The position numbers and the translations under genes were made by a program. DNA of 64,000 bases from NCBI RefSeq assembly GCF_029962835.1, contig NC_080583.1:70665158-70729157 (forward strand), in the 5' to 3' direction. Below, in pieces: positions 1 to 53,110 of the stretch (its first letter is position 1; each line of letters begins with the position of its first letter). The DNA is from Magnolia sinica. Its lineage: Eukaryota > Streptophyta > Magnoliopsida > Magnoliales > Magnoliaceae. The notes under the pieces are model-generated. The model saw nothing but the letters and a program-made list of their open reading frames with translations, was not told the DNA's origin and did not search any database.

Positions 1-2489
1 TTAGAAAGAAGATACTTAAGTGCCGCATGATCTGTATAGATAATGATCTTGGATCCGATCAGGTAGGACCTAAATTTGTCCAAGTCGAACACTACGACTA
101 AGAGTTCTTTTTCCGTAGTTAAGTAGTTCACTTGGGCCGGATTTAAAGTCCTACTCGCGTAATGGATGACGTAGGGTCTCTTATCTTTTCTCTGGCCTAG
201 AACCGCTCCAAGAGCATAATCAGAAGCGTCACACATAAGCTCAAAAGGAAAGCTCCAGTCGGGTGGCTGCATGATAGGTGCAGTGGTTAACGTGCCCTTA
301 AGCTTGGTGAAAGCTTCCTGGCATTGCTCAGTCCACTCGTACGGAGCATCCTTTTGAAGAAGATTATATAAAGGATGAGAGAGGAGACTAAAGTCCTTTA
401 TGAATCGCCTGTAAAATCCTGCGTGTCCTAAGAAGGATCGCACGTCTCTGATGTTCTTGGGTGGAGGTAGGTTAGAGATAAGATCAATTTTTGCCTTATC
501 TACCTCGATTCCCTTGGACGAGATGATATGCCCAAGGACAATTCCCTTCTGAACCATGAAATGGCACTTCTCCCAATTAAGTACCAAGTTCTTTTCTTCA
601 CATCTTTTCAGCACACATTTAAGACTTTCCAAGCACTTGCTGAAAGATGGACCGTAAACAGAGAAATTGTCCATGAAGACCTCTAGATATTGCCCCACCA
701 TATCAGAAAAGATACTAAGCATACATCGCTGAAAGGTGGCAGGGGCATTACATAGTCCGAATGGCATCCTTCGGTAGGCAAAGGTGCCGTAGGGACATGT
801 AAATGTGGTCTTTTCCTAGTCTTCAGGGGCTATCTCTATCTGGTTGTAGCCCGAATACCCGTCAAGGAAACTGTAATAGGAATGACCAGCTAACCTTTCC
901 AGGATCTGATCAATGAATGGTAAAGGAAAGTGGTCTTTCCTCGTGACGGTATTCAACTTCCTGTAGTCAATGCACATTCTCCAACCAGTAGTGACTCTAG
1001 TTGGCACGAGTTCATTATTAGCATTGGCTACGATGGTGATTCCGGACTTCTTAGGGACCACTTGAGTTGGACTCACCCATTGACTATCAGATATAGGGTA
1101 TATGATACCCACGTCCAATAGTTTAAGAACCTCGGCCTTAACCACTTCCTTCATGTTTGGATTTAGTCTACGTTGTGGTTGCCAAGCGATTTTTGCATTA
1201 TCCTCAAGATATATGCGGTGAGTACAAATCAAGGGATCGATTCCCTTGAGGTCCGCTATCGTCCATCCCAGGGCTCCTTTATGCTCAATGAGAGTAGATA
1301 TGAGCATACTCTCCTGTTCTTTCTCCAGGTGGGCAGAGATCACCACCGAGTATGTCTCATCTTGACCTAAATAGGCATATTTCAAATCAGAGGGCAAAAG
1401 TTTTAGGTCAAGCTTCGGCGGCTTGAGGTTAGACGGTAGAGGCATTACATAGGTTTGTGGTAATTCTTCAAATTGTGGCATCCACCGGTTAACTTCAAGT
1501 ACCGGTGCAGTATCAAGTAAGGCGTACATCTCCCTAATCATGTCATCATCAAAATCATAGGAGTGGGCCAGGCACGTCTCCAGATGGTCGGAGGATAAGG
1601 TCAACGGTGTCGTATCTTCCACGAAAGAGTCAATCATGTTAATGTCATGCAAATCGTCATCCTCCTCTAAGTTTCTGCCGTTATTGAAAAAGATGTTTGA
1701 CTCTAATGTCATATTCCCAAAAGACATAGTCATGACACCATTCCTGCAATTGATAATTACATTTGAAGTGGCAAGGAATGAGCAGCCAAGAATGACGGGG
1801 ATCTGAGTGCTTATGTTATTGATGGGTTCGGTGTCCAGGATGATAAAATCTACAGGGTAGTAAAATCTATCAATTTGGACCAACACATCCTCAATTATCC
1901 CTCTTGGTACACGAACAGAGCGATCAGCAAGTTGTAGTGTGGTTAGGGTGGGTTTTAATTCACTCAAACCTAACTGTTTGTATACCAAGTAGGGAATCAG
2001 ATTGACACTCGCTCCTAAGTCAAGAAGTGCGTGATCAATTCGATGGTTCCCGATTACACATGATATGGTTGGGCTACCGGGATCTTTGAATTTCTATGGC
2101 ATGTCTTGCTTTAGGATAACACTCACTTTCTCAGTCAAGAAAATTTTCTTTTGAATACTTTGCCGTCTTTTGGTCGTGTATAAGTCTTTCAGAAATTTGG
2201 TATATGAAGGAATCTGTTTCACGACATCAAGTAGAGGAATATTGACTTTCACTTTTTTCAACACCTCTAGGATATCCTGAGAGTTAGAGAGAGGTTTCGG
2301 TGAAACCAACCGTTGGGGGAACGGAGCAACTGGCTTCTCTAGAAGTTCCAGTTCTAATTTTTGTGGGGCATCACTAGATCCATCATTGTTGTCCTCTTTT
2401 GGTTCTTGAGGCTTTTCGAGCCTAACCGGAAGAGTTTTATCAATGATCTTTCCACTCCTAAGAGTGGTGATGGATTTAGCGTGCCCCAT
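1..2489 (-). pseudogene. Athila-like Ty3/gypsy pol (protease, reverse transcriptase, RNase H), broken
   Basis: This is the pol region of an LTR retrotransposon, read on the minus strand and cut by the left window edge. The segment at 2094-2489 has the gag-pol linker motif SITTLRSGK. A stop (TAG, 2094-2096) precedes the protease, whose catalytic DLGASVN lies at about 2002-2022 upstream of the first Met of the long ORF (816-1988). RT follows, with CIDYRKLN and LDGYSGYNQIEI, then a second in-frame stop (TAG at 816-818) where relatives have Gln. Beyond it RT continues in the same frame. Near 665-690 the catalytic box reads FMDN where active enzymes have two Asp residues. RNase H shows YTDHAALKYL at the left edge. 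Integrase would lie outside the window. The two stops and the altered active site make it inactive. Family confidence is high; lineage (Athila) is supported by the tRNA-Asp-type primer site. Confidence 0.9.
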
Positions 2490-3842
2490 CTGATTTGAAG
2501 AGCTGGGATCATTATCTCGTACTTCGGTTTAAGATTTGGGAGAGGTTGTGTAGGAAGCATCCTCTTTTCTATAACCGTCATACGAGAATCTATCTTTTGC
2601 ATAAAATCTGTAATTCCCCGCATTGCCTGAGCCAGCTCTTGTATGAAATTTTGAACCGGTTCCTCTTGAGGTTTCACTTGATTTGGATTTTGATTGAAGA
2701 AACCTTGAGGAGTAGCCGTTTGTCCATTCCTCCAACTAAAGTTTGGATGATTTTTCCAACCAGGATTGTACGTATATGTATTGGAGTTAAAAGTTCTTTG
2801 ATAGTTGTTTACAGCATTAGCTTGTTCATTCAACACTCCTCGAAAGGCAAGTATTGTAGGACAATTTTCAGTTGTATGAATGTTGCAATCACAGATGCCG
2901 CAAATAATTTCATTAACCTTATCCTTCTTTCCTTCCATGGCCTCAACTTTCCTTATGAGCGTAGTCACTTTACACTTGAGATCATCCTCTTCTTTCAAGA
3001 GATATAATCCACCTTTCTCCTTTAATTGAGTCGGCCTAGACGTGGTGTTTGATTTTGGGTAATAGTCCCAAGATTGTGTTTTTTCAGCCAAACTGTCGAG
3101 GTAGTCCCATACCTCGTCGACATCTTTATTAATGAACTCTCCATTACACATTATCTCAACCATTTGGCGCATGGAAGATGACACTCGTAGAAAAAATTTA
3201 TAATGCGCCACGTTTCAAATCCGTGTTGTGGGCATGAATCGACCAAATCTTTGAACCTTTCCCAACATTGGAAGAATGTTTCATCTTCCTTTGGGCAAAG
3301 TTCATGATTGCTTTACGAGGGTAATCGTTTTATGATGTGGGAAGAATTTTTTATGAATTCCCCTGCATGTCGCTCCATGTGCCAATGGATCTAGGACGCG
3401 ATAAATGTAACCACGTCTTAGCCTTGTCTTTTAAGGAAAAAGAAAAGAGTTTCAGCCTGATTGTATCCTCAGATACATTGAGAAAATATAATGTAGCTAT
3501 AATCTCATCGAACTCTTTCAAATGTAAATATGGACTTTCTGATTCAAGTTCATGGAATTTGGGAAGGAGTTGGATAACTCCTAGCTTGATGTCCATTTGT
3601 CCTGTGTTTTCAGAAAAAATCATGCATGAGGGCGTACTCACTCCCGCCGGTTGTAGATAATCTCGTAAAGTACGAGGCGGGGGTGTCTGATGCACCTCAT
3701 TCTCATCTTGGGTATCCTCCACCCTGGGTGGAAGTAGAGAAGGTTGGTCTTCAGCCATAACTTCAGTTAACTCAGGGGATTTTGAGTGGTGTCTAGTCCT
3801 GCGATGGATAGTTAACCCCTCAACCAATCCTCCTTCAGTCAA
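2354..3842 (-). pseudogene. Athila-like gag, frameshifted
   Basis: This is the capsid/nucleocapsid gene of the same element, upstream of pol on the minus strand. The first part (3351-3842, 163 codons from a Met) has the conserved gag segment PYLHLKEFDEI and LKDKAKTWL. The frame then breaks between about 3211 and 3351, where gag homology continues in other frames. The second part (2354-3211, 285 codons) begins with the gag C-terminal segment (SSMRQMVEIMCNGEF) and has a CCHC zinc knuckle of the CX2CX4HX4C type at residues 104-117. A further frameshift near 2490-2520 is needed to join it to the pol linker. At least two frameshifts make it non-functional. Confidence 0.85.
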
Positions 3843-4610
3843 GAGACGTCAAGTGTTGTCACGGGCCCACTTGGGCATGAAACACTCGCAGCCCTCAATC
3901 AAATTTGAAACCTAATTCTAAGAAGGGAAAAGAAAATCCAAAAAGAAAGAGAGGGTTGAAAAGAAGTTACCAAATTGGAGTCCCTAAGTTAAAAACCTGC
4001 AAAATAAAACAAAATAAGTTAGATTCTAAAGAGAAGGTCTAGAATTAGAAAATCTTTAAAAAAGAAAGATAGAAGTAAAAATAGTTTCTAAAAGAAGAAG
4101 ATCCTAAACTAGAAAGTAGATTACTAAAAGAGAACTGAAAAATAGAAAGTAGAGAAAGAACTTACTGAATTCGAAATTTCTATCTTGAAGGCCTACAAAA
4201 TATGAAAGTTAGTTTTTAAACCAAAAGTCTACAAGTAGAAAATTTCTAAAAATAAATTAGGAAACAAAGTTAGATTCTAAAAGAGCCAAAATTAGAAAGA
4301 ATTTCTAAAAAGGGAAATAACTAACCTAGTTTCTAAAAACAAAAAGAGGAAAGTTTCTAAAAATAAACTATTTCCTAAAAATAGGAAAATACTAGAATTA
4401 GAAATTTTCTAAAATTTAAACCCTAATTGTAAAAGTAGAAAAAGTAGAGAAATTAGGAAGGAATTACCAATTTAGAAACTTATGTTAGGATCCTACAAAA
4501 CAGGAAAACAAGTTAGTTCAAAAAAAAAAAAATCTAAAACTAAAGTTAGTCAAATTCTAATCTTAAACTAATTCTAAACCTAATTAATTTCAGAAAACGT
4601 AACTGTCAAG
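3843..4610 (-). other. Untranslated leader between Athila LTR and gag
   Basis: This is non-coding, A-rich sequence between the primer-binding site and gag. It is full of short variants of TTTCTAAAA and TTAGAAA, giving a loosely repetitive stretch with no ORF. A long leader between the primer-binding site and gag is usual for this lineage. Confidence 0.6.
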
Positions 4611-7226: not shown

Positions 7227-7787
7227 GGGAAATTGCCCATACTGACCTCAATGTATGGTAAAATTCCCTAGAGAGATTCAACCTTCAAAATATTCCGAAG
7301 GTAGCCTTCTTACAAGCTTTGAAATATCTTTTGAACCAAAATGCCCTTGTCTTAGGTTGAGTAGTTGTACAGTTTTTGAATGAATGAGAAGTTACATCAT
7401 ATTTAATTCTGAGAAAGTGATTTGGACGGAAACCTTTTTTGGGCATGGGCAAGGCCCAACTCATGGGGCCCACATTGATGTATGTGTATAATCCATGCCG
7501 CCCATCCTTTTTGCCGTGTCATTTTAAGGCTCGGGCCCAAATATCAGCCTGATTCAGAGTTCATGTGGGCCACATAATAGTAAATAATGGTGACCATGGT
7601 ACCCACCGCTAAAACTTTCTAAGCTCACTGTGATATATGTTAAAAGTGAACACTACCTATGTTAGAACTTTTTGGGTCCACGACGAGCTGGCCGAAAAGG
7701 TGAATGGAACAGATCATCCCATTGTGGCCCTTAGGGTATGGTACCAATGGCTAGCCTTTCATTTGGTAATAAAGGAAGTGAACATAT

Positions 7788-8200
7788 AACATGACAACTA
7801 CGACCCATATAACAAGACAACTACAACCCATACAACTACGACCCATATAATAGGACAACTGCAACCCATATAATAGGACAACTGCGACACATACAACTGC
7901 GATCCATATAACAGGACAACTGCGACCCATATAACAGGACAACTGCGACTCGTATAATAGGTCAACTACGACCCATATAATAAGACAACTACAACCCATA
8001 TAACATAACAACATAAACTCATATAACAGGACAATTGCGACCCATATAACATGACAACTGCGATCCATACAACTGCGACCCATATAACAGGACAACTGCA
8101 ACCCATATAACATGACAAGTACGATCCATACAACTGTGACTCATATAACAGGACAATTGCGATCCATATAACATGACAACTACGACCCATGCAAACCATG
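7788..8200 (-). repeat. 23-bp minisatellite, left arm of the foldback element
   Basis: These are tandem variants of a 23-bp unit reading GACAACTGCGACCCATATAAC plus two bases, mixed with shortened units of about 14 bp that lack the ATATAACAG part. Because 23 is not a multiple of three, all frames cycle through the same peptide (LYGSQLSCYMG). The ORFs here are by-products of the repeat and not genes. Confidence 0.85.
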
Positions 8201-9204
8201 ACCCATATGGGCCCACATTGATGTATGTGTATAATCCATACCGCCCATCCTTTTTACCATGTCATTTTAGAGCTAGGACCCAAATATCAGCCTGATCCAG
8301 TGCTCGTGTGGGCCACATAATAGAAAATAATAGTGACTGTTGAAACTTTTTAGGCTCACTGTGATGTTTATTAGAAGTAGACACTACCCAAATCAGTACT
8401 TTTTGGGCCCACAGTAAGTTGGCCAACAAGGTGGATGGATCGAATCACCCCATTATGGGCCTTAGGCTTTGGTACCACTAGCTAGGTAACAAAGGAAGTG
8501 AATACGTGAAAACCACAATCCATATAACGTGACAACCATAACCCATATAACATGACAACTAGGACCCATGCAAACCACGACCCATATGGGCCCACATTGA
8601 TGTATGTGTATAATCTATGTCGCCCATCATTTTTGCCATGTCATTTTATGGCTAGGGGCCAAATATTAGCCTGTTTCAGTGCTCGCGTGGGCCATATAAT
8701 AGAAAATAACAGTGACTGTTGAAAGTTTTTAGGCTCACTGTGATGTTTGTTAGAAGTGGGCACTCCCAAGTTAGGACTTTTTGGGCCCACGACAAGTTGG
8801 TCGACAAGGTGGATAGATTGGTCTCCCCATTGTGGGCCTTAGGCTATGGTACAAATGGATAGGTAGTAAAAGAAGTGAATACGTGAAAACCAGAATCCAT
8901 ATAACATGACAACCATGACCCATATAACATGACAATTATGACCCATGCAAACCACGACCCATATGGGCCCACATTAATGTATGTGTATAATCCATGCCGC
9001 CCATCCTTTTTTACGTGTCATTTTAGGGATAGGGCCCTATATCAGCCTGATCCAGTGCTCATGTGGGCCACAAAATAGAAAATAAAGTTGACTATTGAAA
9101 CTTTCTAGGCTCACTATGATGTTTGTTAGAAGTGGACACTGCCCAAGTTAGGACTTTTTGGCCCCCACGGTGAGTTGGCCGACTAAGTGGATGGAACAGA
9201 TCAC

Positions 9205-10012
9205 CCCATATGAGTTGTGGTTGTTGTGTTATATGGGTCTTAGTTGTCATGGGTCGTGGTTGTCATAGGTCATTGTTATCATGTTATGTGGATTGTGGTT
9301 GTCATGTTATATGGGTCGTGGTTATCATGTTATATGGATTGTGGTTTTTACATGTTCACTTCCTTTACTACTTAGCCATTGGTACTATAGCCTAAGGCCC
9401 ACAATGGTGTGATCCGATCCATCCACCTTGTCGATCAACTCGTCGTGGGCCCAACAAGTCTTGACTTGGGCAGTGTTCACTTCTAACAAACATCACAATG
9501 AGCCTATAAAGTTTTAACAGACACCATTATTTTCTATTATGTGGCCCACATGAGCACTGGATCAGGCTGATATTTGGGCCCTAACCCTAAAATGACATGG
9601 CAAAAGCATGGGCGACATGGATTATACACATACATCAATGTGAGCCCATATGGGTCGTGATTTGTATGGGTCGTAGTTGTCATGTTATATGGATCGCAGT
9701 TGTCCTGTTATATGGGTTGCAGTTGTCCTGTTATATGGGTCGCAGCTGTATGGATCGCAGTTGTCATGTTATATGGGTCGCAATTGTATAGATCGCAGTT
9801 GTCATGTTATATGGGTCATAGTTGTCCTGTTATATGGGTCGTAGTTGTCTTATTATATGGGTCGCAATTGTCCTGTTATATGGGTTGCGGTTGTATGGGT
9901 CGCAGTTGTGATGTTATATGGATCGCAGTTGTCCTATTATATGGGTCGCAGTTGTCCTATTATATGGGTCATAGTTGTCACGTTCTATAGGTTATAGTTG
10001 TCCTGTTATATG
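9205..10012 (+). repeat. 23-bp minisatellite, right arm (inverted)
   Basis: This is the same 23-bp unit in reverse orientation (ATATGGGTCGCAGTTGTCCTG). It is in two blocks (about 9205-9350 and 9650-10012) separated by a unique-arm segment. The array is interrupted at 10013 by the solo LTR and resumes at 39930 with ATATGGGTCGTAGTTGTCATG, which shows that the LTR landed inside this array. Confidence 0.85.
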
Positions 10013-12510: not shown

Positions 12511-13040
12511 AATTACCAATACCGGTTATCGATACCAATTATGAGTATGTGACAACATACTACCAAAAAAAGGGGCAAAGGATTCAGACCACATTACTAT
12601 TTTACTACGGATATAAACCTTAGCTATACTTGCTACGGTTTTAATCCGTAGCTAAAAAGTTGATACACCATTAATAATTATTAGTGTTGTAAGGGGCTCT
12701 ATGAGGCCTAAAAAACTATATGTTATATCTAAGCCGTCTATATATTTTTAAATATTACTTTAGACGTTGAAAAAAAATCAGCTAGATCAAAGCCTCAAGT
12801 GGACCACACGGTAGGAAACATTGATATTAAATTATAGTTGCTTTTTATGGTGTGGTCTAGTTAGGTCTTAGATATATCTGAAATTTGGTTTCCTAAAGCA
12901 AAATAATTTAATAAAATTATGGATAGGAATGGATTAATTAAATACATCATGGTGGGCCCCACGGAGTCCCTAATCGGTTCGTCCGTCAGAAGATCCCCAA
13001 TTTTGGGCGCGCGCTCAAAACAGAGTCATGCCCAAAGACT

Positions 13041-13133
13041 CTAATTTGCGCACTCTCTCTCCTATCTCTCTCTCATGCACTCTCTCTGTGTCTCTCTCTC
13101 TCTCTCTCACTCTCCCTAAGTCTCTCTCTCGCG

Positions 13134-13184
<51 letters not shown>

Positions 13185-13220
13185 TCTCTCTCTCTCTCGC
13201 ACACTCTCTTTCCCTGTCTC
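13041..13220 (+). repeat. CT-rich microsatellite leader of CACTA element 1
   Basis: Long CTCTCT runs, broken by GCGCACTC, follow about 480 bp after the terminus. The same layout recurs in element 2 (about 41520-41660, 42010-42043) and upstream of the transposase (56730-57110). Short ORFs here are low-complexity Ser/Leu reading frames. Confidence 0.7.
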
Positions 13221-34947: not shown

Positions 34948-35254
34948 GTGAGAATTATTGAATGCATATAGAGGGTGTTTATTATGTTGGAGTATATTTG
35001 TTTCTTATACATGAGGGCATGCTTTAGTTGTAATTCTTATGATAGGTTGAGCAAAGTGAAGTATTGTTTATGTAGAAATGTGAATGTAGGATGCATTGTA
35101 TGATTTGATTGCATTTTGTAATAAATGCATCGTTTCATTTTTTTCTGATTGCATTTTATATACTATTTCTATCAGCATTAAGCTTAGATGAGTTATCAAT
35201 GACAACAGGTTCTTGTAATGGAAACAGGTCGTATTATGATAATTTTTTTTTAAA

Positions 35255-35647
35255 ATAGCTAGAAATATAATCCGTACCTATAGCTACGGCTTTTGTTCGT
35301 AGCTCTTAGTATCTAGTGCTACGGATATTATTGGTGTTATTGGTATCTACAGCTACGGATAAAATCCCTTTTACTACGGATTATATCCATAGCATGTCCA
35401 CCGCTATTGGTGGGATAACTAAAGCTATTGCTACGGATATTATCCGTAACTATTGGTATCTATTGCTACGGACAATATCCATAGCTATTGTTACCTATTG
35501 CTACAGATATAGTCCGTAGCAATTGGTACCTTTTGCTACAAATATAGTTCGTAGCTGGACATTTAGCTACCCCACCAATAGCAGCGGAGGTGCTACGAAT
35601 ATAATCCGTAGCAAAAGCCATAGCCTTTGCTCATTTTTCTTATAATG
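35255..35647. repeat. 3' subterminal repeats and terminus of CACTA element 1
   Basis: At least ten copies, in both orientations, of GCTACGGATAT / ATATCCGTAGC with spacers of TATTGGTATCTA type end at CATTTTTCTTATAATG. Such dense subterminal motifs are where CACTA transposases bind in known families. Confidence 0.8.
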
Positions 35648-39745: not shown

Positions 39746-41519
39746 GTAAAGTTATGGTTATGCTTCTTATGAAACAAATGTTCGTTAAAAATCCTCCTTG
39801 TAGGATCCTAGGATCGGAATCTAGTGTATGGGCGTTGGAAGCCGAGAATGGGGTACTATGAAGACTGCCGGCACCGGATTCAATGATCGAAAATTTTGTG
39901 AGCCCAGTTTCCGAGTTTGGGGCGTGACAATATGGGTCGTAGTTGTCATGTTATATCTTCACTTCCTTTACTACCAAATGAAAGCCTAGCTATTGGTGTC
40001 ATACCCTAAGGCCCACAATGGGATGAACTGTTCCATTCACCTTTTTGGTCAGCTCGTCGTGGGCCTAAAAAGTTCTGACTTGGGCATTATTCACTTCTAA
40101 CATACATCACAGTGAGCCTAGAATGTTTTAATAGTGGGTGCCATTATCACCAATATTTTCTATTATGTGGCCCACACAATCTCTGGATTGGCTGATATTT
40201 GGGCCCTAACCCTAAAATGACACAGCAAAAAGGATGGGCGGCATGGATTATACACATACATCAATGTGGGCTTCACGAGTTGGGCCTTGCCCATGCCCAA
40301 AAAAGGTTTTCGTCCACCACGTCACTTTCTCAGCATTAAATACGACGTAACTTCTTATTACTGGAAAACCGTACAACAACTGGAAAACCGTACAACTACT
40401 GAACTAAGGACAAAGGCATTTTGGTCCAAGTAATTTTCAGAAGCTTGTCAAAAGGCCACACTCGTAATATTTGAAAGGTTGAATCTCTTTCAAGAATTTA
40501 ACCATACATCGAGGCTTGTATGATCAATTTCCCTAAATGTCATGGATGGCCAACATGGAATAACGTTTGACCACTACCAAAAAATCAAGCAAAGGCTACG
40601 GACTTTGGAAGTTTTTAGCTACGAATATAAACCGTAGTGAATATGCTACAGATTTAATCCGTACCTAAAACCTACTTAATATGTAGCTAAAACTTATATC
40701 CCACCATAATCTTATTAGAGATTGATGGTGCTTAAGGGGCTCCATGGGGTCCATTGGAATATATGTGTTTTATCTAAGCTGCCCATCAATTTTGATATAT
40801 AATTTTAGTAGATAAGCCCAAAAAGTAGGTAGATTGAAGCTCTAAGTGGACCACACCATTAGAAATAAATAAATAAAAAAATTCTATCGTTAATATTTTA
40901 TGCGGTCCGCTTACAGCTTCGATCTGACTCATTTTTTGGATCAACCCTTAAAATGATCCATTAAAATGAACGGCGGGAGTAGATAAATAACACATATCAC
41001 GGTGGGCCCCACAAGACCTAAAACTAAGCACTAAAAAGTTCCGTCCGTCACCCCCCAAAACACAATCCCCCGCTATTCCTCCCGTGCGCGTCCATCTCCC
41101 AAGACCCAAATAAGGAATGAAATCCCTCAGGGCCCGTTTGGCCGGGTGGATTGGGAGGGATTGAATGGTATTAGGGTGGATGGCATGGATTTCTAGGTAA
41201 TAATGGTGTTGTCGGTGGATTGTCTGGAGATCCATGGGATTGCTATATCCAGTCTGTTTGGCACGCCCGGGCAAACCCGGGATTAAACCTTCTCATCCCT
41301 TCCAATCCCTCAAACCAAACACGTCCTAGGCAAATTTGAAAGGATTAGGGTGGATTGGATGGGATTTAAAGGTAATGATGGTGTTGTCAGTGGATTGTCT
41401 TAAGATCCATGGGATTGGGATCAGATCACCGACTCTGTTTGGCACGGCAGGCCAATCCTGGGATTTGACTTCTAATCCCTTCCAATATCATCCAATCCCC
41501 TCCAATCCGACCGGCCAAA

Positions 41520-42003
41520 CGGGCCCTCAATCTCTCTCGCGCACCCGCCCCTCTGCCAAAGCCCAAACATTTTCTCTCTCCCGCGAGGTCGCCCCTTCCA
41601 AAACCAAAACCCTCTCTCTCTCTCGCGTGGCCGACCCTCTGTTTCCCAACCCTCTCTCTCTCATTAGGGTTTTAAAAACCTCCTTTCGTCATAAACCTAC
41701 ATTAGATTTGATTGAAGAGCGATTTGCTCTATTTTTCCTATTTTTCTCTTGTTTTTACAGAACTTAGGGTTTGGAGATGCTTTCTTGAAGAAATTCCAGC
41801 TTTTTCTTTCTTTCTTCTTATGAGGTGAGAATCTGGAAATTCGGTCTCATCTTTGTAAAATTTCAATGATTTTTTTTCTTAAAGAGTTTCAGCAGCTCCC
41901 AGCAATCATCCCTACCATAAGTAGTCGGCCCCACCCACCGCTCCTTCAATTAAAGACCCTAACACCCATGCCACCACTTCCAATCCCACTAGTGAAGAGT
42001 TCT

Positions 42004-42051
<48 letters not shown>

Positions 42052-42060
42052 CAATCATAA
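41520..42060 (+). promoter_or_regulatory. CT-rich leader and possible promoter region of CACTA element 2
   Basis: CTCTCTC runs, TCATTAGGGTTTTAAAAACC (about 41660) and a pure CT tract (about 42008-42043) lie directly upstream of the first captured exon. This composition is common around plant transcription starts. The region 41130-41525 has GGGCCCGTTTGG-type inverted segments (41132 and 41514) enclosing TGGATTGGGA-like repeats. Confidence 0.4.
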
Positions 42061-42109
42061 TCATCTTCTTCTTGTTGTTTTTTCTCTTCCTTAGAAATGT
42101 TATTTCAAT

Positions 42110-42471
42110 GCCTTCTTTGCAAGTCCGTATGATCTTCATATCTAGTCTTCCGACCGATCTCAAAGAGAGAGAACTCCAGAACCAGGTGAGATGGTTGTTG
42201 GGCTATGAGGCTTCTCAGCTGAACTTCAAGGGTGAACAGTCAATGGGCTTTGCCCTCTTCTCCACTGCCCATCTTTCACTCGCTGCCAAAGCCGTCATTC
42301 AGGTATAATAGTCTTCGGTGAAAATAAAATTCTGCTCATGCCATCCTCTTTACTCACATCGAGTATCTTTGAATGGTTAAATTTTTAGGTTTTACAGGAC
42401 ATGGTTTTCAATGCAGAATCCAAGTATGTTCTTCATGCAGAGATGGCAAAGAATAATCTTTTCATCAAAAG
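42110..42471 (+). pseudogene. RRM RNA-binding protein fragment (two exons)
   Basis: Exon 1 (about 42110-42302) reads LQVRMIFISSLPTDLKEREL then GYEASQLNFKGEQSMGFALF, ending CAG before a GTATAA donor. Exon 2 (42398-42471, after TTTTACAG) reads DMVFNAESKYVLHAEMAKNN and LFIKR. The phase-0 junction joins smoothly into an RRM with RNP2-like IFISSLP and RNP1-like MGFALF. It resembles the first RRM of a plant two-RRM family (often annotated scw1-like). The site after LFIKR is AT instead of GT, so the donor is lost. The second RRM and linker are absent. Confidence 0.75.
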
Positions 42472-43490
42472 ATGTGATATTATTTGTCAATTTAAGTTCA
42501 TACCTGTGGGGTCCATGTTTGAGTGGTCTAAGCTGATGATATAATGTGCCCCATTGCAGATGAACATTGCAAGGAAATCTCCCAGGTGGGAAAACCTAAC
42601 CATTTTAAGTAAGAATATGCTACAACAATTTATATTCAAGTAAGAAAATGTTGTATATTATCTATGTATAATCTTGCAGTCCAGGAGATTTTTAGTGCAT
42701 GAGCCATCAATGGATGGATCCACCATATCAATTGTTTGGATCACTCAAGCCGTGGGTCCCACTTGTACAAAATGGAAACCTACTCTATTCTCCATAATGT
42801 CAGCCCTAGCATTGCATTAATACCTCTTTATTTATCCATGGTTTGTTGTTTCATTACTAAATTTTGGTGGACTATGATTCTTCATAGAGTTGATGCCTTG
42901 AAATGTTTCTTCATGTTTCTTCACCCCAAGTAAAAATTTTGAATTCTTATGCTCTTGAAATTTGAATTATGATGGTCGATCTTGAATTGGTATTTAATAA
43001 TTGGGTTGTCTGAGACATTCATATCTTATGATCAGATGAATGAATAGGGATTGATTTCTACGGGCTTTGGTTGCACATGCTGCAGTTCTTGTAAGAAAAT
43101 AGAATATAGTTTTGAATGTATTTCCAATGTAGTGAATTTTTAAAGTTGTATCTAGTTGTAAACAAGGGCACTTCTGTGATTTGAGGCTTCATCTCATCAA
43201 CAATAATGCCAGGTTTGCTATTTTAAGTTACTAGATTGTAATATCTTACTGATTGGATGTTTCTGAGTGTCCAAAAATAGTTGGACATCAAGTTTTAGAA
43301 AGGCCCACTTATTCAATCGTTAGGATCACAATGTGGGGTAATTTGAAGATAATTCTCATGTTTCAAATGTCCATGCGATATTTCACATTTTACTCTAGTG
43401 TAACAAACTTAAGATTTAAAACTTTCTGAAAGAAAGTTGATAATTGAATATTAATTGATTTGGAGGCTATGTATTGCTGATTTTCTCCAG

Positions 43491-43585
43491 GCCATGACTG
43501 TCCAACAAGTTAAGGCATCTATGGATCTAAAGAAAGAAATGGGAAGATTAATAATTGAACAAAAGTATGGGGAAGCATTCACTCC
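43491..43585 (+). pseudogene. VARICOSE/EDC4-like C-terminal exon fragment
   Basis: After TTTTCTCCAG an open stretch reads VKASMDLKKEMGRLIIEQKY then GEAFT, after which similarity ends and the frame runs to a stop. It resembles the region of plant VARICOSE (enhancer of mRNA decapping 4) where an acidic linker meets a helical repeat domain. Identification rests on about 25 residues from memory, so it is tentative. It is in the same orientation as its neighbours. Confidence 0.45.
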
Positions 43586-44163
43586 CATGAATTGTTGGAT
43601 GTTTATTTGGTTTTTAGATGATGCATATTTTGCTTAGTTTTTCAGAGTTTATAATTGAGTAGATGAGCATGTGCTCTTGAAGTATTGTCTCTGTTTTTTT
43701 TATGACATCTCATCCCTGTCCTTTTCTATATTTTTAGTTCTTTTATTTTGGGGCATAACTTTTCTGTATGATGATATTCATTGTAGGATCAATCAATTCA
43801 TACTGTAGATTTGAGTCCATACTCATCTTTTGATATTTTTAGGTTACAAATGGATTATTGCCACTACAAAAGCTTTATCCAAGCAGAATCTACCAAAATC
43901 ACTAGGAAATTAATTTGGGTTTGTTTTGGATTTTTGAGTTTTTAATTCCAATTGCATAATCTAATGCAATCATTCCATTTAGGTTTTCTTTCTGTTTTTT
44001 CATGATGATTGATTGCTTTTATTTAGCTGGTCGTTGAAAAGGGAACTGGTGACCTACACAACTACCTGTAGTTTACCTAACACACAATCCACTTTTACAA
44101 GCATTTTGTGCCAGGGTCCAATTGGAAACAAAATTCCAAAGGCACATCTTTTTTCATATGCAG

Positions 44164-44232
44164 GCTAGTGCATTCAAAGGGCCTATTTTCACCCATGCAG
44201 ATGTCGAGCCCGATATGGTGGTGAAGGGAAAG
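44164..44232 (+). pseudogene. RRP5: RRP5 (rRNA-processing S1 protein) exon fragment
   Basis: A 69-base block between the acceptor CATATGCAG and the donor GTACTT encodes ASAFKGPIFTHADVEPDMVV then KGK. This resembles the start of an S1 RNA-binding repeat in plant RRP5, a pre-rRNA processing factor in the nucleolus. Both splice sites look usable. Only one short exon is present; the rest of this very large protein is absent. Confidence 0.6.
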
Positions 44233-45297
44233 GTACTTTTTTTTCCTGCATTCATTGTTACTTCTGTTTTGCTGACAGTCTTCAAGCCACTCTTTGTTTG
44301 TTTGTAATGGTATTAATACTTGATTTATGCATAGACTATGTACCTAGCTCCAATGGAGAAATCATGTGCAAGGATGGGCTTTTTTCATCATTTGAGTTGA
44401 TGTTTTACAATGGAATTTGTTCGCTCCCTTTCCTGCTAATATTTATAATCTGTTCCACTTAAATTGAGGTTTCTGCATCATTAGTTACTACCATTTGCAG
44501 GCTATGGATATGGATTTTTCATTTTTACAATGATGCATTGTATTCGAATCTGTTTGTTGGAAGTCAGAACCCACTCGATGAATCATAGTTCGAAAGCTTG
44601 ACCTGACTCAGAGGAGTTGACTCAACCAGGTTATATCTAGACTCAGAGAAAATCACATTTCAGTCACAAACCTTTAAAAAAAAAAATAAATAAATAAATA
44701 AAATTGTAGTAGTTACTTTGACTGAGTTAGGTTTTCAAGTTTTAAGCAATGAGATGAACGGTCTAGACTTGGGTTAAGAATCAAGAGATACTATTTGTAA
44801 AGTTTTCTAAGGACACAATTGAGAGCTTTCAGTCAATCAAGGTTGTAGAAGTCTTTTATTTTATTAGAAGATGGATTCCTGATTTTTCAAAGGAGATTAC
44901 CTAACTTGCCCATAGTTAGCCTGCCACTACTCCCATCAAGCACATGAATCAAAATCTTTTTTTGTCACTTCCCATGTCGCTGAAATTGCATATGATATGC
45001 ACTGCTCGAGGTACCCATTTTTGCTTCCTTTATGCATTATGGATTTTTTATTTTTATTTTTTTATTTTTGCTTAATTTTAGAACTCTTGAATACTGCTGA
45101 TGTGCACTGCCCTTGAATGTTGACTTTCCTGCAATGAGTTCTAGGTAAGAATTTGTTGAAGGTCATAGCCCTGTTCAACTTGAGAATGACATGCACAGTG
45201 GCTACACTTTGATCTGGCTGGTCCATACTTTGTATGCAATTCCTCTTGCAACTGTTTTATGGGTGTTCTTAAAGTGGAATGCTGTTGTGTTATGTAG

Positions 45298-45677
45298 GTG
45301 ATCAAGATGCTATCCAGTATAGGTGTAGAGAGGCACCAAAAGCTGTCATAGAGCTTGAAAATTATGGGTTGCCATTTTCCCGAACTGAAGAAGGGAAAAT
45401 ATATCAGCTTGCAATTGGTGGTCAAAGCCTGAATTTCGGAAAAGGTTCACATACTCAACTTTGTTATAGGGGTAGTTAGTTTCACGAGTTATCTATAACA
45501 TTTCCTGATTTTTACCATCTTCCGTGTTGCAATTATAGGTGGGCAGGCCTATCGCTATGCATGTGCTGTCGATCGAACTGGTCATGCTTTATTGCACATG
45601 CTTTATGGCCAGGCAATGAGACAATACACAGTTCTTCGTGGAATACTTTTCTTTGGATCTTATAATGGACAGTACGG
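45298..45677 (+). pseudogene. SDH1: Succinate dehydrogenase flavoprotein (SDH1) exon fragments
   Basis: Two adjacent exons of the mitochondrial complex II flavoprotein are recognisable. Exon 1 (45298-45444, after TATGTAG) encodes [20 protein letters not shown] and [16 protein letters not shown], up to a GT donor. Exon 2 (45539-45677, after AATTATAG) encodes [20 protein letters not shown] and LYGQAMR, then shifts frame at about 45625 by loss of one base. The expected continuation is readable in another frame up to a GTAAG donor. Active-site and FAD-binding exons beyond are absent. The one-base deletion confirms a pseudogene. Confidence 0.9.
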
Positions 45678-46650
45678 GTAAGTTACTTTCTGAGTGATAT
45701 ATTTCTCCACCCAAAAAATTGACCTAATCTCGCTTTCCTCTGATTTGAATTTGAACTTTTTGTGGTTCTCACTTGTCAAACACATGTTGAGTGTGATACA
45801 ATTGAATTGCTTCAGTGCAGATAGAAAGTGCTGAATGATTATCTTTTGAATTTTATTTGGCATTCTTTTCCATTATGTGGGAAATCATAAGGTGATAACT
45901 TGACATATTAAGGTAGGATACACCAGATAACTGAAGTATGGACCAGCCAGATTCATGTGCTTTTCTTCCTATTGCTGAAAGAAAGACTGACAAAAAAAAA
46001 AAACAGTTTTGGATTGAGAAAATCAGTAAGAGAGAAAAATGCTAGCATTGTTTGAGAAATCAATGGCAAAGAGCCCAGAAGGGTTGAAGTTTTGAACATC
46101 CACTCAATGAGTTGAAGCCAATGGTGAGGGTTAATAGTCAAGGCCAGGTGTGCGGTTCAAATTATAAGGTCGATGCGGAGTCGAAGAAGGATACCGGCAT
46201 GCCTAGAGTCGGGAGCGCTGTAAATTGGTCTGCGCACTACTGATCTAATATCCACCACCCAGGGAGGCTTTGTTATAGTGTGGCCTCTGGCTGGTATTTA
46301 TCATCCTATTCATAACATGGACATCATTTCTAGTTCTTATATGATTGACTTTGTTGCTTTTATATAAAAGGATGTTATGACTCTCGGGCATGTTTAAATT
46401 AATAGATTTTCTTTATATGAAGTTTTTATCCCTTGATTTGGGTGTTCTGAAACACTAAAAATAAAATAAAAATGTGTTTTTCTTCCTTGCGTTTGCTGAC
46501 TTCACTTGTCTCCTTTTTTATCAAGGAAATGTCATATTAAAACTCATTAGGCACTAAGCTTTTGGCTCAGCAAGCCTTGCTTGTTGCATAGACCATTACA
46601 AATCCATCATGGAATGTAACCGGTTAATGTTTCCATGCTGCAAATTGTAG

Positions 46651-47130
46651 TGTTCTCTTTCAAGAGATATGACCGATATGACCGATATGTAAAGATGCGC
46701 CTAGATAAAGTTTCAGAGTTGATACACAATTCTACCAATCACCAAAACTTGGATAGTACAGGCATTTCTGTTCACTTACAAGAGATAATTGATATGGTGA
46801 GACCATTCCTTTTGTGTCAATTTCATTCCTCTTTGAGTTTTTATTAATTCCTTATGGAAAAAAAAAAATGGTCATACATGATGCACTTCTTTCACTTTGT
46901 CCTTTTTCCCCCAATGGTCATTCCGATTTATGAATGTCATAACTATTTGTAGGATGATGGAACATATGAAGCTGTTGCAGGAAGTGACTTTGTCATTACT
47001 AGAGTTGCATTTCGAGACAACTCTTTAAAGTACTACATAAATGACCGTGAAGTAATTTTACAAAGGTCGCTAACAAATTGAAAGGAAGAGGAGTAGACTT
47101 GGACTTAGAAGTAATTTTACAAAGGTCGTC
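46651..47130 (+). pseudogene. SMC4: Condensin subunit SMC4 exon fragments
   Basis: Exon 1 (46651-46796) reads MRLDKVSELIHNSTNHQNLD then STGISVHLQEIIDM before a GTGAG donor. Exon 2 (from 46953, after TTTGTAG) reads DDGTYEAVAGSDFVITRVAF and RDNSLKYYINDR. These match the N-terminal ATPase head region of plant SMC4, the condensin partner of SMC2. A short ATATGACCG duplication disturbs the start of exon 1. After YYINDR one base is missing (about 47051), shifting the frame. The segment AGTAATTTTACAAAGGTCG is then repeated at 47110-47130, and homology ends. No Walker A-containing exon is present. Confidence 0.85.
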
Positions 47131-47261
47131 AAGATTTGTATTTTCAGCATTATTGTAATTGTAATTGATTCATTATTGAATGAATGAATGATTGTAATTA
47201 AATGAATGAATGATTATGCAGGTGGTAAATGAATGAATTATTATAATTTTTTTTAAATGTA

Positions 47262-47583
47262 GGCAGTAGCTACGGATATTGAGCGTAGTTGGTAATCTGA
47301 CAACCGTAGCTATTATTAAATTCAGTATATTGCTACGAATCTAGCACTACTTTTATCTACAAATACTATCCGTAGTTGTACGTACTTTTTGCTACAAAAA
47401 TGGTTGCTACAGATTATATCTGTAGCTATTGTAATCTATGGTTATAGATTAAATCTATAACCATAGATTTTAGACCTATTGCTACGGCACCTACGACTAC
47501 AATCGTGCTACAGACTAAAATCGTAGCCATATGTCTATGTCTATAGATTAAATCCATAGCTTTTGTCCAGTTTTCTAGTAATG
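47262..47583. repeat. 3' subterminal repeats and terminus of CACTA element 2
   Basis: Many GCTACGGATAT / ATCCGTAGC-like motifs, in both orientations, end at GTTTTCTAGTAATG. They match the equivalent region of element 1 at 35255-35647 in motif and spacing style. Confidence 0.8.
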
Positions 47584-47658
47584 GATCCACTAATTGGCAG
47601 CTCTTTGGGCATTCTTTAGTGAATCCCAGTGCATCTGGACATCTATACATGGGTCCAT

Positions 47659-49773
47659 TGTTCACAACCCCAAGTGTAGGGTCATAATGTAGTAATAATC
47701 TCGGTAAGACCAAGGTCGAATTCACAGGGACTTAACCTTATACGTATTCTGAAAGTAACCAGAACTAGAACTAGAAGAAGATGTAATCTAAATTAGGAGA
47801 ATGTAAGATAATAATTGTAAAGTACTTAACTAAAACTTGTAAAATTTAAAGGTGGGAAATTAGGGTTTCTAAGGATCCACTTGTAGAGATGAGGGAGATC
47901 TATGCTTGATTCAAAACACAACTGAAATCAGAATCCCATCTTCATCCAATTGGAAGATATCTCATTAAAACTCAACTATGAACTTCATTTAATCTAGTTC
48001 TCAAGATATGAGAGGTATTAGAACTAGAATTGATTCCATCACAAAACCATGCCCATGAAACAAAGCAAACAACAGAATTTAACCAATCCACAACCAATCT
48101 AAGAGAGTTATGAACGCTAGGAAGGATTCTATCATCCAACCATGTCCATGAGATGATGGTGAACAACAGAGTTCCGATGCTCACAACCTCGATACATGCA
48201 CAAAGTATACTCAAAGCTATCGCAGATCTAGTGTAATTTAAGTCACAACAAACCATTAAAAACTATGAATATTCCTCATAATCAAACCAAAATCAAAGAT
48301 AGTTCAACTTAAACATGAATCAAAAGCATAGAGAGCATCCCATCACGCTACAAGCTTCACCTCTTAGCCCTAGCTAAGAGGTTTAGCTCATCATAGACAT
48401 GATCAAGCTATAACTCAGAAAAACATCAAGGAAAACAAATAAAACTAAAGAAGAGGAAGAGAAAAACTCATCCGGCCCACGTCTCTCTCTCTTTCTCTTG
48501 CCTTTGCTTCCCACGTCCAAGGATGCCCTTCTCTCTCTCTCTTCTTTTCTCCTTTTATAGCCAAGGGAGGTCGGCTAGAGACAGTGGAGAGAGTCGGTTG
48601 CTGCATAAGGAGTTATACACTCCCTTTCGCAGCGAAAGAAAACGCAAACTAAGCTACAGTTAGAAGAGATTTTGGTGTCGTTTTTCATCTCAGCTCCTGT
48701 TCTGTCTTCATGGCTATGGCCGTGGCCCCCTTTTTGAGATTTTGGACGGTCTGAATCTTACATCCGACCCTTCCCTTGATCACATAGTGGCCCACAGAGG
48801 GCTGGACGCTGCTGCGCACGTTCCTGCGCATGAACCTACGCAGGGATTTGCGTTGGGCGACTGGTATGCATCAAAAGAGAAATTCACTCCGTCCATTGGA
48901 TTCATGGTGAAATTTTAGTCAAGAATGGATGGTTTTACTTGAGTTTGGTGCCGCCCAAGGGATCAAATCTTCCTGCCGTTCATCTTGCGTTTGATGGTGA
49001 ACTTCATGTGTGCACATGCATGGTTGTAGAAAGACACCATGGTTGTGGTCGGCCTCACCGTCTAGACACGTTGGATGGTTCAGATCAACCATCAGGACAA
49101 CAGTGGTGGGCCACTTGTCATCTCAGCGAACTGACGTCTGCACTTGCTGTGTAAATGAGAGCCAAGTTGGGTCAGCTACCTTTGACCGGACTCTCCGGTC
49201 CGATGCGGTGCCGCTGTGCACCTTCCGTGCACATTCACCAATGCATGTGGGGTACACTATGATGTTCATGAGAAATCTGCACCGTCCATTCAGTTTATCA
49301 TCTAATTTAAGGAGTTGAGACCAAAATTGAAGCATATCCAGGGATCAAGTGGGCCCAAAATCGGTGGTTTTGTAGCTGATCTCTCTGTTGGGCCACTTCC
49401 ACAAAAATCCAATGGTTGAAATTTTATGTGTACGGTTACTTTATGATCCTTAGGCCAAATATAAAGTTCGAGTCAAATGGATGGTGGGAACCCTATGATC
49501 TTCCATTCAAGAGATTTTCAAGCCTCTTTATCGTTAATCATTGGGTTTTCTCGGATCTTTGGCATGTGAATTCTTCGATCTCGGTCCCCTAAGATCCGTC
49601 CCTTGCCTTGGTGATTCTTAAGCATCAAATTCATTCCTTTAGCACCCTTTTTCAATCTAAGCTCTTAAATTCACCTTGCAACAAAAACATGATTAAAATG
49701 GAATGTTAAGCATTATCATGTTCATAAAACCAAGTAATAATTGGGTCTAATATGCAATATTTGACCCTCAACA
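47659..49773 (-). mobile_element. Solo LTR of an Athila-like element, complete
   Basis: It is 2,115 bp, starts TGTTCACAACCCCAAG and ends TTTGACCCTCAACA. The perfect 5-bp duplication TCCAT lies at 47654-47658 and 49774-49778. It is homologous to the truncated LTR at 4634-6395 in the same plus-strand sense. By comparison with that element, transcription would run on the minus strand. No internal gene is present, so it formed by LTR-LTR recombination. Confidence 0.9.
48359..48382. other. Conserved LTR hairpin
   Basis: ACCTCTTAGC, CCTA, GCTAAGAGGT: this is identical to the hairpin at 5270-5293 in the other LTR of this family. A perfect 10-bp stem preserved in two diverged copies hints at an RNA or DNA structure used by the element. 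Confidence 0.7.
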
Positions 49774-51167: not shown

Positions 51168-53110
51168 CACTACAAGAAATAGCGTTTTTAGCGACGAATT
51201 TTTTACAGACGAAAAAAATTTCATCGGTAAAAGTACTGTTTTACCGATGAACTTTTTTTTCGTCAGAAATATTTTTTTTACTAACGAAAATTTTCATCGA
51301 TAAAAGTAATTTTCCCTCTAGTTTGAAAATTTTCCCTCTAAGAGTTTTACCGACGAAAAAAAAGAGAACCACTTTTATCGATGAAAATTTTCATCAGCAA
51401 AAGTGTTGTGTATTTAAGTAAGAAAATTTTCGCCCTGACTTTTACCAACGAACCAAAACCATCGGGAATAATATTTTTACCGCCGAAACTGTTCGTCGAT
51501 AAAAGTGTTGTATTTAACTTGGAACATTTTCCACTAAGAGTTTTACCGACGAACATATTCATCGGTAAAAATCAGAGAAAGACTTTTACCGACGAAAGTT
51601 TTCGTCGGCAAAAGTGTTGTGTATTTAAGTTAGAAAATTTTCACCCTGACTTTTACCAATGAACCAAAACCGTCGGGAATAATATTTTTACCGACAAAAT
51701 TGTTCGTCAGTAAAAGTGTGGTATTTTTAACTTTAGAAAATTTTCCACTAAGAGTTTTACCGGTGAATATTTTCGTTAGTAAAAATCAGAGACTTGTACC
51801 GGCGAAAGTTCTCGTCGGCAAAAGTGTTGTGTATTTAAGCTAGAAACTTTTCTCCCTAACTTTTACTGACGAACCAAAACCATCAGGAATACTATTTTTA
51901 CCGACGAAAATTTTCGTCAGTAAAAATATTATATTTTCCCCTGTCAAGATTTTCAGGGTGAGTTTTACCAACAAACTAAAACCGTCGGTAATGATAGTTT
52001 TACCGAGAAAACTTTCCGTCGGCAAGTGTTCTGTTTTTCACTTGGAAAATTTTTACCCCAAGTTTTACCGACGAACTAAAACTGTTTTTACTGACGAAAA
52101 TGTTCGTTGGTAAAAGTGTGATATTTTTAAGATAGTAAATTTCACACTAAGACTTTTTACCGACGAAAGCTTTCGTCAGGAATAATGACATAATTTTTGA
52201 CTAAGAAAATTTTCCCACTACCTTGAAATGTTTCCCACTAAGAGTTTTATTGACAAACAAAAGCCGTCAGGAATAATTTTTTACCGATGAAAAGTATGAT
52301 ATTTTTACAATGAAAAATTTTGCACTGACTTTTACCGATGAACACGTTCGTCGAGAATAATGACATAATTTTTAACTTAGAAAATTTTCGCGCTGTAGTG
52401 AAAAATTTCCCACTAAGAGTTTTACCGATGCACGAAAGCTGTCGGGAATAATGTTTTTACCGACGAAACATTTTGTCGGTAAAAGTGTTCTGTTGTTCAC
52501 TTAAAAAAATTTGGCCCTAAGTTTTACCGACAAACCAAAACCATCAGGAATAATGTTTTTTTCCAACGTAACGTGTTGCCAGTAAAAGTGTCGTATTTTT
52601 AAGATAGAAAAGTTTTCGCTGAGAGTTTTACTGACGAATAGTTTCGTTGTGAATAATGATCTAATTTTTAACTTAGAAAATTTTCCCACTGTCTTGAAAA
52701 AGTTTTGCGGTAAGAGTTTTACCGACGAACTAAAACCGTCGGGAATAATATTTTTACCGACAAAAATGTTCATCAGTAAAAGTGTTCTCTAACTTCAAGT
52801 ATTTTCACCCTGACTTTTACTGACGAATCAAAACCATCGGGAATAATATTTTTACTGACAAAATTATTTTTACCGACAAATAATATCATTGGTAAAAGTG
52901 GTCTATTTAAGTTAGAAAATTTTCGCCTTGACTTTTACCAACGAACCAAAACCGTCGGGAATACTCTTTTTACCGACGACGAATGATTTCATCGGTAAAA
53001 GTGGTCTATTTCTGTTAGAAAATTTTCGCCCTGACTTTTACCGACGAACCAAAACCGTCGGGAATACTCTTTACCGACAAAAAGTTTCATCAGTAAAAGT
53101 GTTAATTTTT
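51168..53110 (+). mobile_element. CACTA terminus with about 2 kb of subterminal repeats (different family)
   Basis: CACTACAAGAAATAGCG at 51168 is a classic CACTA terminus. It is followed by many copies, in both orientations, of a motif close to TTTTACCGACGAAAATTTTC and its complement TCGTCGGTAAAAGTG, spaced by GAAAATTTTCCACT-type sequence. The preceding triplet is TGA. The other end was not found, so the element may extend right and include the transposase region, or be a terminus only. The small ORFs are products of the repeats. Confidence 0.75.

Follow-up and report, generated by a model that had tools for sequence, protein, structure and literature searches.

We analyzed a 64-kb window (C11:70665158-70729157) of the 1.84-Gb Magnolia sinica genome, the whole stretch to which the positions given below refer. 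Positions 40572-47583 are occupied by a non-autonomous CACTA transposable element of ~7 kb, a member of a large family that we designate A. Between its ends lie, in this order, a nested insertion, a CT-rich leader, a fragment of an RRM gene, a repeated exon-like segment, and fragments related to RRP5, a nucleotide-sugar transporter, SDH1, and SMC4.

The 5' terminus at position 40572 reads CACTACCAAAAAATC and the 3' terminus at position 47583 reads TTTTCTAGTAATG; both are boundaries of the family. The first 600 bases, which include the 5' terminus and subterminal region (40572-41130, plus strand), matched 39 other genomic places at 83-89%, with starts no more than 2 bases from 40572 (best 40 of 4093 candidates). 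The last 344 bases, corresponding to the 3' subterminal region and terminus (47240-47583, plus strand), matched 39 other places at 84-87%, 35 of which stop at 47583 (best 40 of 1640 candidates). The expectation of a first-pass annotation of this DNA that the termini should be present in other genomic copies was thus borne out among the places scored for each end. Family-A copies L002-L007 carry the CACTACCAAAAAAT end. Motifs resembling GCTACGGA (at most one mismatch, both strands pooled) numbered four in 40572-40692 and nine in 47264-47583, against shuffle means of 0.02 and 0.11, respectively, and none of 1000 mononucleotide shuffles reached either count. Short subterminal repeats in both orientations, by which CACTA elements are recognized, are present. 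The element also has the makeup of a Pack-type transposon: host-gene fragments lie between transposon ends, a transposase of its own is lacking, and the donors lie elsewhere, with introns captured alongside exons. No stop-to-stop frame of at least 150 amino acids was detected in 40572-47583, the element itself having been surveyed for open frames and not with a transposase profile, and no Rfam family matched 40500-47700 at gathering score. The genome is rich in Transposase_21 (best 150 of 1669 candidates scored), and the element would have been mobilized in trans by a CACTA transposase.

The CT-rich leader (41524-41710, plus strand) forms part of the family-A 5' module. It was matched in all seven family-A copies examined, ~0.5-0.8 kb behind the 5' end, and is therefore transposon-family sequence, not the promoter of a captured gene. 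The first-pass annotation noted a CT-rich leader ahead of the fragments; its promoter-like character is putative. Immediately upstream, 41131-41523 is a nested insertion resembling a miniature inverted-repeat transposable element, with ends GGGCCCGTTTGGCCGG and CCGGCCAAACGGGCCC; in copy L002, the match passes from 41129 directly to the leader at 41524, skipping this stretch. A second insertion of ~500 bp (45971-46471) lies within an SDH1 intron.

The first host fragment behind the leader (41892-42917, plus strand) comprises exon 1 (42108-42302) and exon 2 (42398-42473) of an RRM gene, together with introns and a 5' leader. Its donor, C9:8423246-8424302, matches at 84% in a single stretch of 1063 columns, introns included. 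The RRM name follows in part from the first-pass annotation; Pfam RRM_1 matched the donor exons at an E value of 0.006, under the cut-off, and the element's own peptide gave no RRM_1 match. Farther downstream, an RRP5-like exon fragment (44144-44241, plus strand) matches C4:79131000-79131096 at 90%. The peptide of this C4 locus, read through the one in-frame stop in the stretch, matched Rrp5 chain 6rxy at an E value of 1.8e-4 and Pfam S1 at an E value of only 0.12. Internally deleted fragments of a nucleotide-sugar-transporter-like gene follow (44237-45213, plus strand). Three pieces (44282-44435, 44437-44566, and 44822-44935) match C9:9144461-9149399 at 85-88%, and the remaining intervals (44237-44281, 44567-44821, and 44936-45213) are ascribed to the transporter solely via neighboring loci. 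The joined exons of this donor matched GDP-mannose transporter 5oge at an E value of 4.4e-4 and no Pfam family. This transporter-like gene is an additional donor, absent from the first-pass annotation.

The SDH1 fragment (45229-46659, plus strand) contains exons at 45298-45444 and 45539-45677 with introns, and is split by the 45971-46471 insertion. Its two parts, 45229-45970 and 46472-46659, match the SDH1 gene at C16:73452486-73453372 at 94-95%, with more SDH1-like exons on either side at that locus, and the fragment matches an SDH flavoprotein in the PDB at an E value of 1.3e-33. The SMC4 fragment (46684-47104, plus strand; exons 46695-46796 and from 46953) matches Smc4 in the PDB at an E value of 1.8e-14. 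Its bases 46684-47103 are 93% identical to C17:65849075-65849496, a locus with open SMC4 exons on its flanks. A second SMC4 match, C3:7480356, is 89% similar, with the frame broken at that locus. Four of the five donors named in the first-pass annotation (RRM, RRP5-like, SDH1, and SMC4) were located, but the VARICOSE-like donor was unconfirmed. The same annotation would have yielded to parental loci holding these exons together in this order; instead, the fragments trace to separate loci at C9:8.42 Mb, C4:79.13 Mb, C9:9.14 Mb, C16:73.45 Mb, and C17:65.85 Mb.

The VARICOSE-like label concerned 43235-43788 (plus strand), a segment with an exon-like stretch at 43491-43564 that is also present in other repeats. 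A genome search with EDC4_C (PF21289) gave 22 matches, and the 3.5 kb read at C9:88.76 Mb and the 7.5 kb read at C3:122.13 Mb contained no convincing match to the segment; the latter region is one that we take to hold VARICOSE-like C-terminal exons. Loci of the L034 and L036 types were considered as donors of the exon and rejected by eye on account of a frameshift in the same exon. Separately, we observed that other repeats, at loci L036-L038, contain 43561-43788 as a tandem array with a period of ~436 bp. At C3:122131342-122139317, a pair of VARICOSE-like 3' gene parts (L051 and L052) seems to form a large inverted repeat, and several of the 22 EDC4_C matches sit in a cluster on C10.

All recognized fragments lie on the plus strand in sense orientation, and the AG or GT was kept at all 12 splice sites checked against the donors (RRM donor 1, acceptor 2, and donor 2; the RRP5 acceptor; the transporter acceptor; four SDH1 sites; and the SMC4 acceptor, donor, and acceptor), in agreement with what the first-pass annotation had reported on both points. 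The G preceding the RRM exon-2 donor site is lost, and the GT at 44233, behind the RRP5 piece, differs from the donor gene's own site. Splicing of the fragments could work, and might turn leader-derived transcripts into chimeric RNAs, most of them noncoding. Relative to the donors, frames are broken by a 2-bp deletion in the second SDH1 exon and a 1-bp deletion in SMC4. Synonymous-to-nonsynonymous counts, which include changes on the donor branch, were 17:18 for RRM, 1:6 for RRP5, 2:7 for SDH1, and 5:10 for SMC4 in the gene's frame; RRM exon 2 and SDH1 exon 2 each had two open frames, and the gene's own was used. Among 256 exon subsets, frames that open at the RRM start reach at most 210 amino acids. 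A chimeric frame across all exons spliced in order was rejected as a candidate, since it spans only 97 amino acids and no long frame is shared. A conserved chimeric protein is therefore unlikely. The leader, the sense orientation, and the retained splice sites would also be expected of an element selected to yield a chimeric protein or regulatory RNA. We consider such a function very unlikely, given the broken frames, the seven nonsynonymous against two synonymous changes in the SDH1 exons, the short product of the full-order splice, and the stops or gaps in the RRM exon of some of six aligned copies of the upstream block described next.

Parts of the element recur elsewhere in different combinations. 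The stretch from 42069 to 44681, 44730, or 45213, here called the cassette, recurs whole or in part at 89-92%. Its RRP5-transporter part (44140-44700) was found at 11 other places (best 40 of 41 candidates scored), nine of which have a CACTA-type 3' end stretch downstream. The only cassette copy whose 5' end was read, C13:73206574, begins with the end (CACTACTAAAAAAAGGGG, CACTACTAAAAAAAGGGGCAAAGG) of a different subfamily, B, which is ~71% similar to A over 107 bases. All six cassette copies compared share a starting point in the RRM donor (one of them 3 bases later), 177 bp inside the start of the focal element's fragment. Because the focal element keeps these 177 bp, the other cassette copies look derived from a longer cassette like its own. 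The join between cassette and SDH1 is spanned by only one other place, C17:63533257 (31 of 31 candidates scored for 44560-45235). A copy at C6:64.80 Mb combines SDH1 and SMC4 with the family-A 3' end; the SDH1 part there includes no less than 797 bp of additional upstream gene sequence (L041 1-915 versus L049, 91%), and no cassette was found within the 5.0 kb examined. About 30 places match only from ~46734 on, and thus cover the piece of SMC4, in many cases along with the 3' end (best 40 of 1398 candidates).

A gene-like row of sense exons with splice sites might be read as a decayed multiexon host gene or a row of pseudogenes, with CACTA ends inserted by chance on both sides. We regard this as extremely improbable: each of the five identified fragments leads to a donor locus of its own, and other chromosomes carry the same cassette joins, mostly (9/11) with a CACTA-type 3' end downstream. 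Under the simplest history, SMC4 would have entered family A first, followed by SDH1, with the cassette arising separately. The cassette (RRM, the exon-like segment at 43235-43788, RRP5-like, and nucleotide-sugar transporter) would have been one CACTA-borne unit and the downstream part (SDH1, SMC4, and the 3' end) another, and the two would then have fused at 45213/45229, most likely via joint mobilization of adjacent elements or recombination between CACTA subfamilies. The donor identities of 84% for RRM and 95% for SDH1 agree with the cassette being older. Alternatively, a Helitron or other transposon may have assembled the upstream fragments, with CACTA elements taking up the block afterward. 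Consistent with this alternative, the cassette is found with more than one CACTA 5' end, parts of it occur elsewhere (43235-43788 in other repeats and 44237-44469 at C3:35459010, locus L047), and stepwise capture by maize Helitrons has been described (PMC3288121). However, the CACTA-type 3' end downstream in nine of the 11 cassette copies argues against prior assembly, although the 5' CACTA end was read in just a single copy; we consider this route unlikely.

Several observations weigh against a CACTA element assembled by fusion of modules. The 3' terminus, which in reverse complement is CATTACTAGAAAACT, has CATTA and not CACTA, and the terminal repeats agree poorly, with identity at 10 of 15 positions. 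The two termini that the first-pass annotation called matching are common to many copies, but their match to each other is imperfect. No exact 3-bp target-site duplication flanks the element (GAC before, GAT after), a single mismatch that is plausibly due to decay because family copies are 83-89% alike; we take the element to be old and mutated. No transposase-encoding member of family A was identified: as judged by eye, the 150 listed Transposase_21 places all lie more than 20 kb from the listed family-A ends, both lists being small samples. The 43235-43788 segment has no Pfam match and no donor located in the genome, and two of the 11 cassette copies (L022 and L023) are without a clear CACTA 3' end in the stretch examined. 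The tree of cassette copies is star-like, with no supported fork; it speaks neither for nor against the proposed assembly history, and the order of events therefore rests on lengths and junctions. Taking these points together with the donor, junction, and family data, we are highly confident that the locus is a Pack-type family-A CACTA element with at least five, probably six, unrelated host fragments, all in sense orientation behind a family leader, and that it was built stepwise by module fusion.

Host exons also follow the leader in two of the seven family-A copies examined, L007 and L008, in each case in sense orientation. These copies were read from the 5' side, and distant fragments are assumed to lie inside the elements. 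In L007, histone H4 lies ~50 bp past the leader (PDB E value, 3.5e-23; no Pfam histone match, only Neurensin under the cut-off), and a DEAD-box helicase segment lies 1.9 kb from the 5' end (PDB E value, 3.6e-4; no Pfam match). In L008, two exons of an AAA helicase were recognized (AAA_11, E value 7e-15; AAA_12, E value 7e-13). In the remaining five copies, no host fragment was recognized by eye in ~1.5 kb, with few segments searched. Stop-free segments of at least 42 amino acids in the seven copies totaled 69 (38 sense, 31 antisense), and the profile scan covered 10 of these, picked by eye and two of them trimmed (7 sense, 3 antisense). Across three family-A copies, all eight supported donors are in sense orientation (RRM, RRP5-like, transporter, SDH1, and SMC4 in the focal element; histone H4 and DEAD-box in L007; AAA helicase in L008). 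Under fair coin tosses, eight of eight in the same direction would occur 1 in 128 times, for a search made by eye and not blind. A sense bias in family A is suggestive and falls short of a controlled count, because the 10 of 69 segments scanned were chosen by eye. One tentative idea, which we think rather doubtful, is that family A collects exons in one direction only: the 5' module, made up of the terminus and the leader (a putative driver of transcription), would retain only sense captures, and leader-driven exon chains would be traded as cassettes between CACTA subfamilies. If sense-only capture behind a transposon-owned leader were true family-wide, it would offer a concrete route to new multiexon transcripts, or else indicate that selection removes antisense captures.

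Elsewhere in the window, 12557-35647 is a second CACTA element of ~23 kb that resembles family B; the B element at C13 is matched by both its 5' part (12559-13198) and its 3' part (35028-35647), and it encloses ~15 kb of a degenerate, telomere-like CCTAAA repeat in which GC skew falls as low as -0.86. An open frame of 162 amino acids at 60833-61321 matches DUF4216 at an E value of 9.9e-23. DUF4216 occurs beside CACTA transposases, and this frame together with a CACTACAAGAAA end at 51168 suggests that a third CACTA family may be present. Minus-strand open frames at 816-3848 resemble, by eye, a long terminal repeat retrotransposon, and arrays of a 23-bp unit occupy 7783-10012, first in direct and then in inverted orientation.

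Multigene capture by CACTA elements is already known. Among the titles and openings of abstracts listed for Magnolia CACTA gene capture, none described family A, and the papers listed for captured fragments in a shared orientation concerned Helitrons. In soybean, Tgm-Express1 (wp allele) is a 5.7-kb CACTA element containing exon and intron pieces of five unrelated genes and giving rise to chimeric spliced transcripts (PMC1947982). The Magnolia element is like it in carrying exonic and intronic pieces of multiple unrelated genes. However, the Tgm-Express1 cDNAs begin in the interrupted F3H gene and their splicing is proven, whereas the Magnolia element has an internal, family-wide CT-rich leader known from sequence alone; its donors number at least five, probably six, and its cassette also occurs in another CACTA subfamily. 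Because Tgm-Express1 already has five donors, the first-pass annotation overstated their number here as striking; multidonor CACTA capture has been published (PMC1947982, PMC8903248).

Pack-CACTA elements of Arabidopsis, rice, and maize likewise have non-autonomous CACTA ends enclosing captured DNA from several loci, and capture by joint mobilization of neighboring insertions has been proposed for them (PMC8903248, PMC13317346). In contrast to these, the modules and junctions of the Magnolia element can be traced across two CACTA subfamilies that differ in their 5' ends, and all its recognized fragments are in sense orientation. CACTA-like elements of Chenopodium also carry captured gene fragments, but single fragments are named in the available text, where Magnolia is mentioned only for its transposase domain arrangement (PMC8978399). 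Maize Helitrons resemble the element in acquiring several gene fragments in sequential steps and differ in their ends, which in Magnolia are those of CACTA (PMC3288121). Against this background, the Magnolia element is an unusually readable example, of which the possible sense bias and the exchange of cassettes are the notable parts. Collection of multiple genes by DNA transposons is still mostly a model; with donors, intermediate modules, and the fusion product readable in one genome, both the sequence of captures and the way the modules were joined become directly testable.

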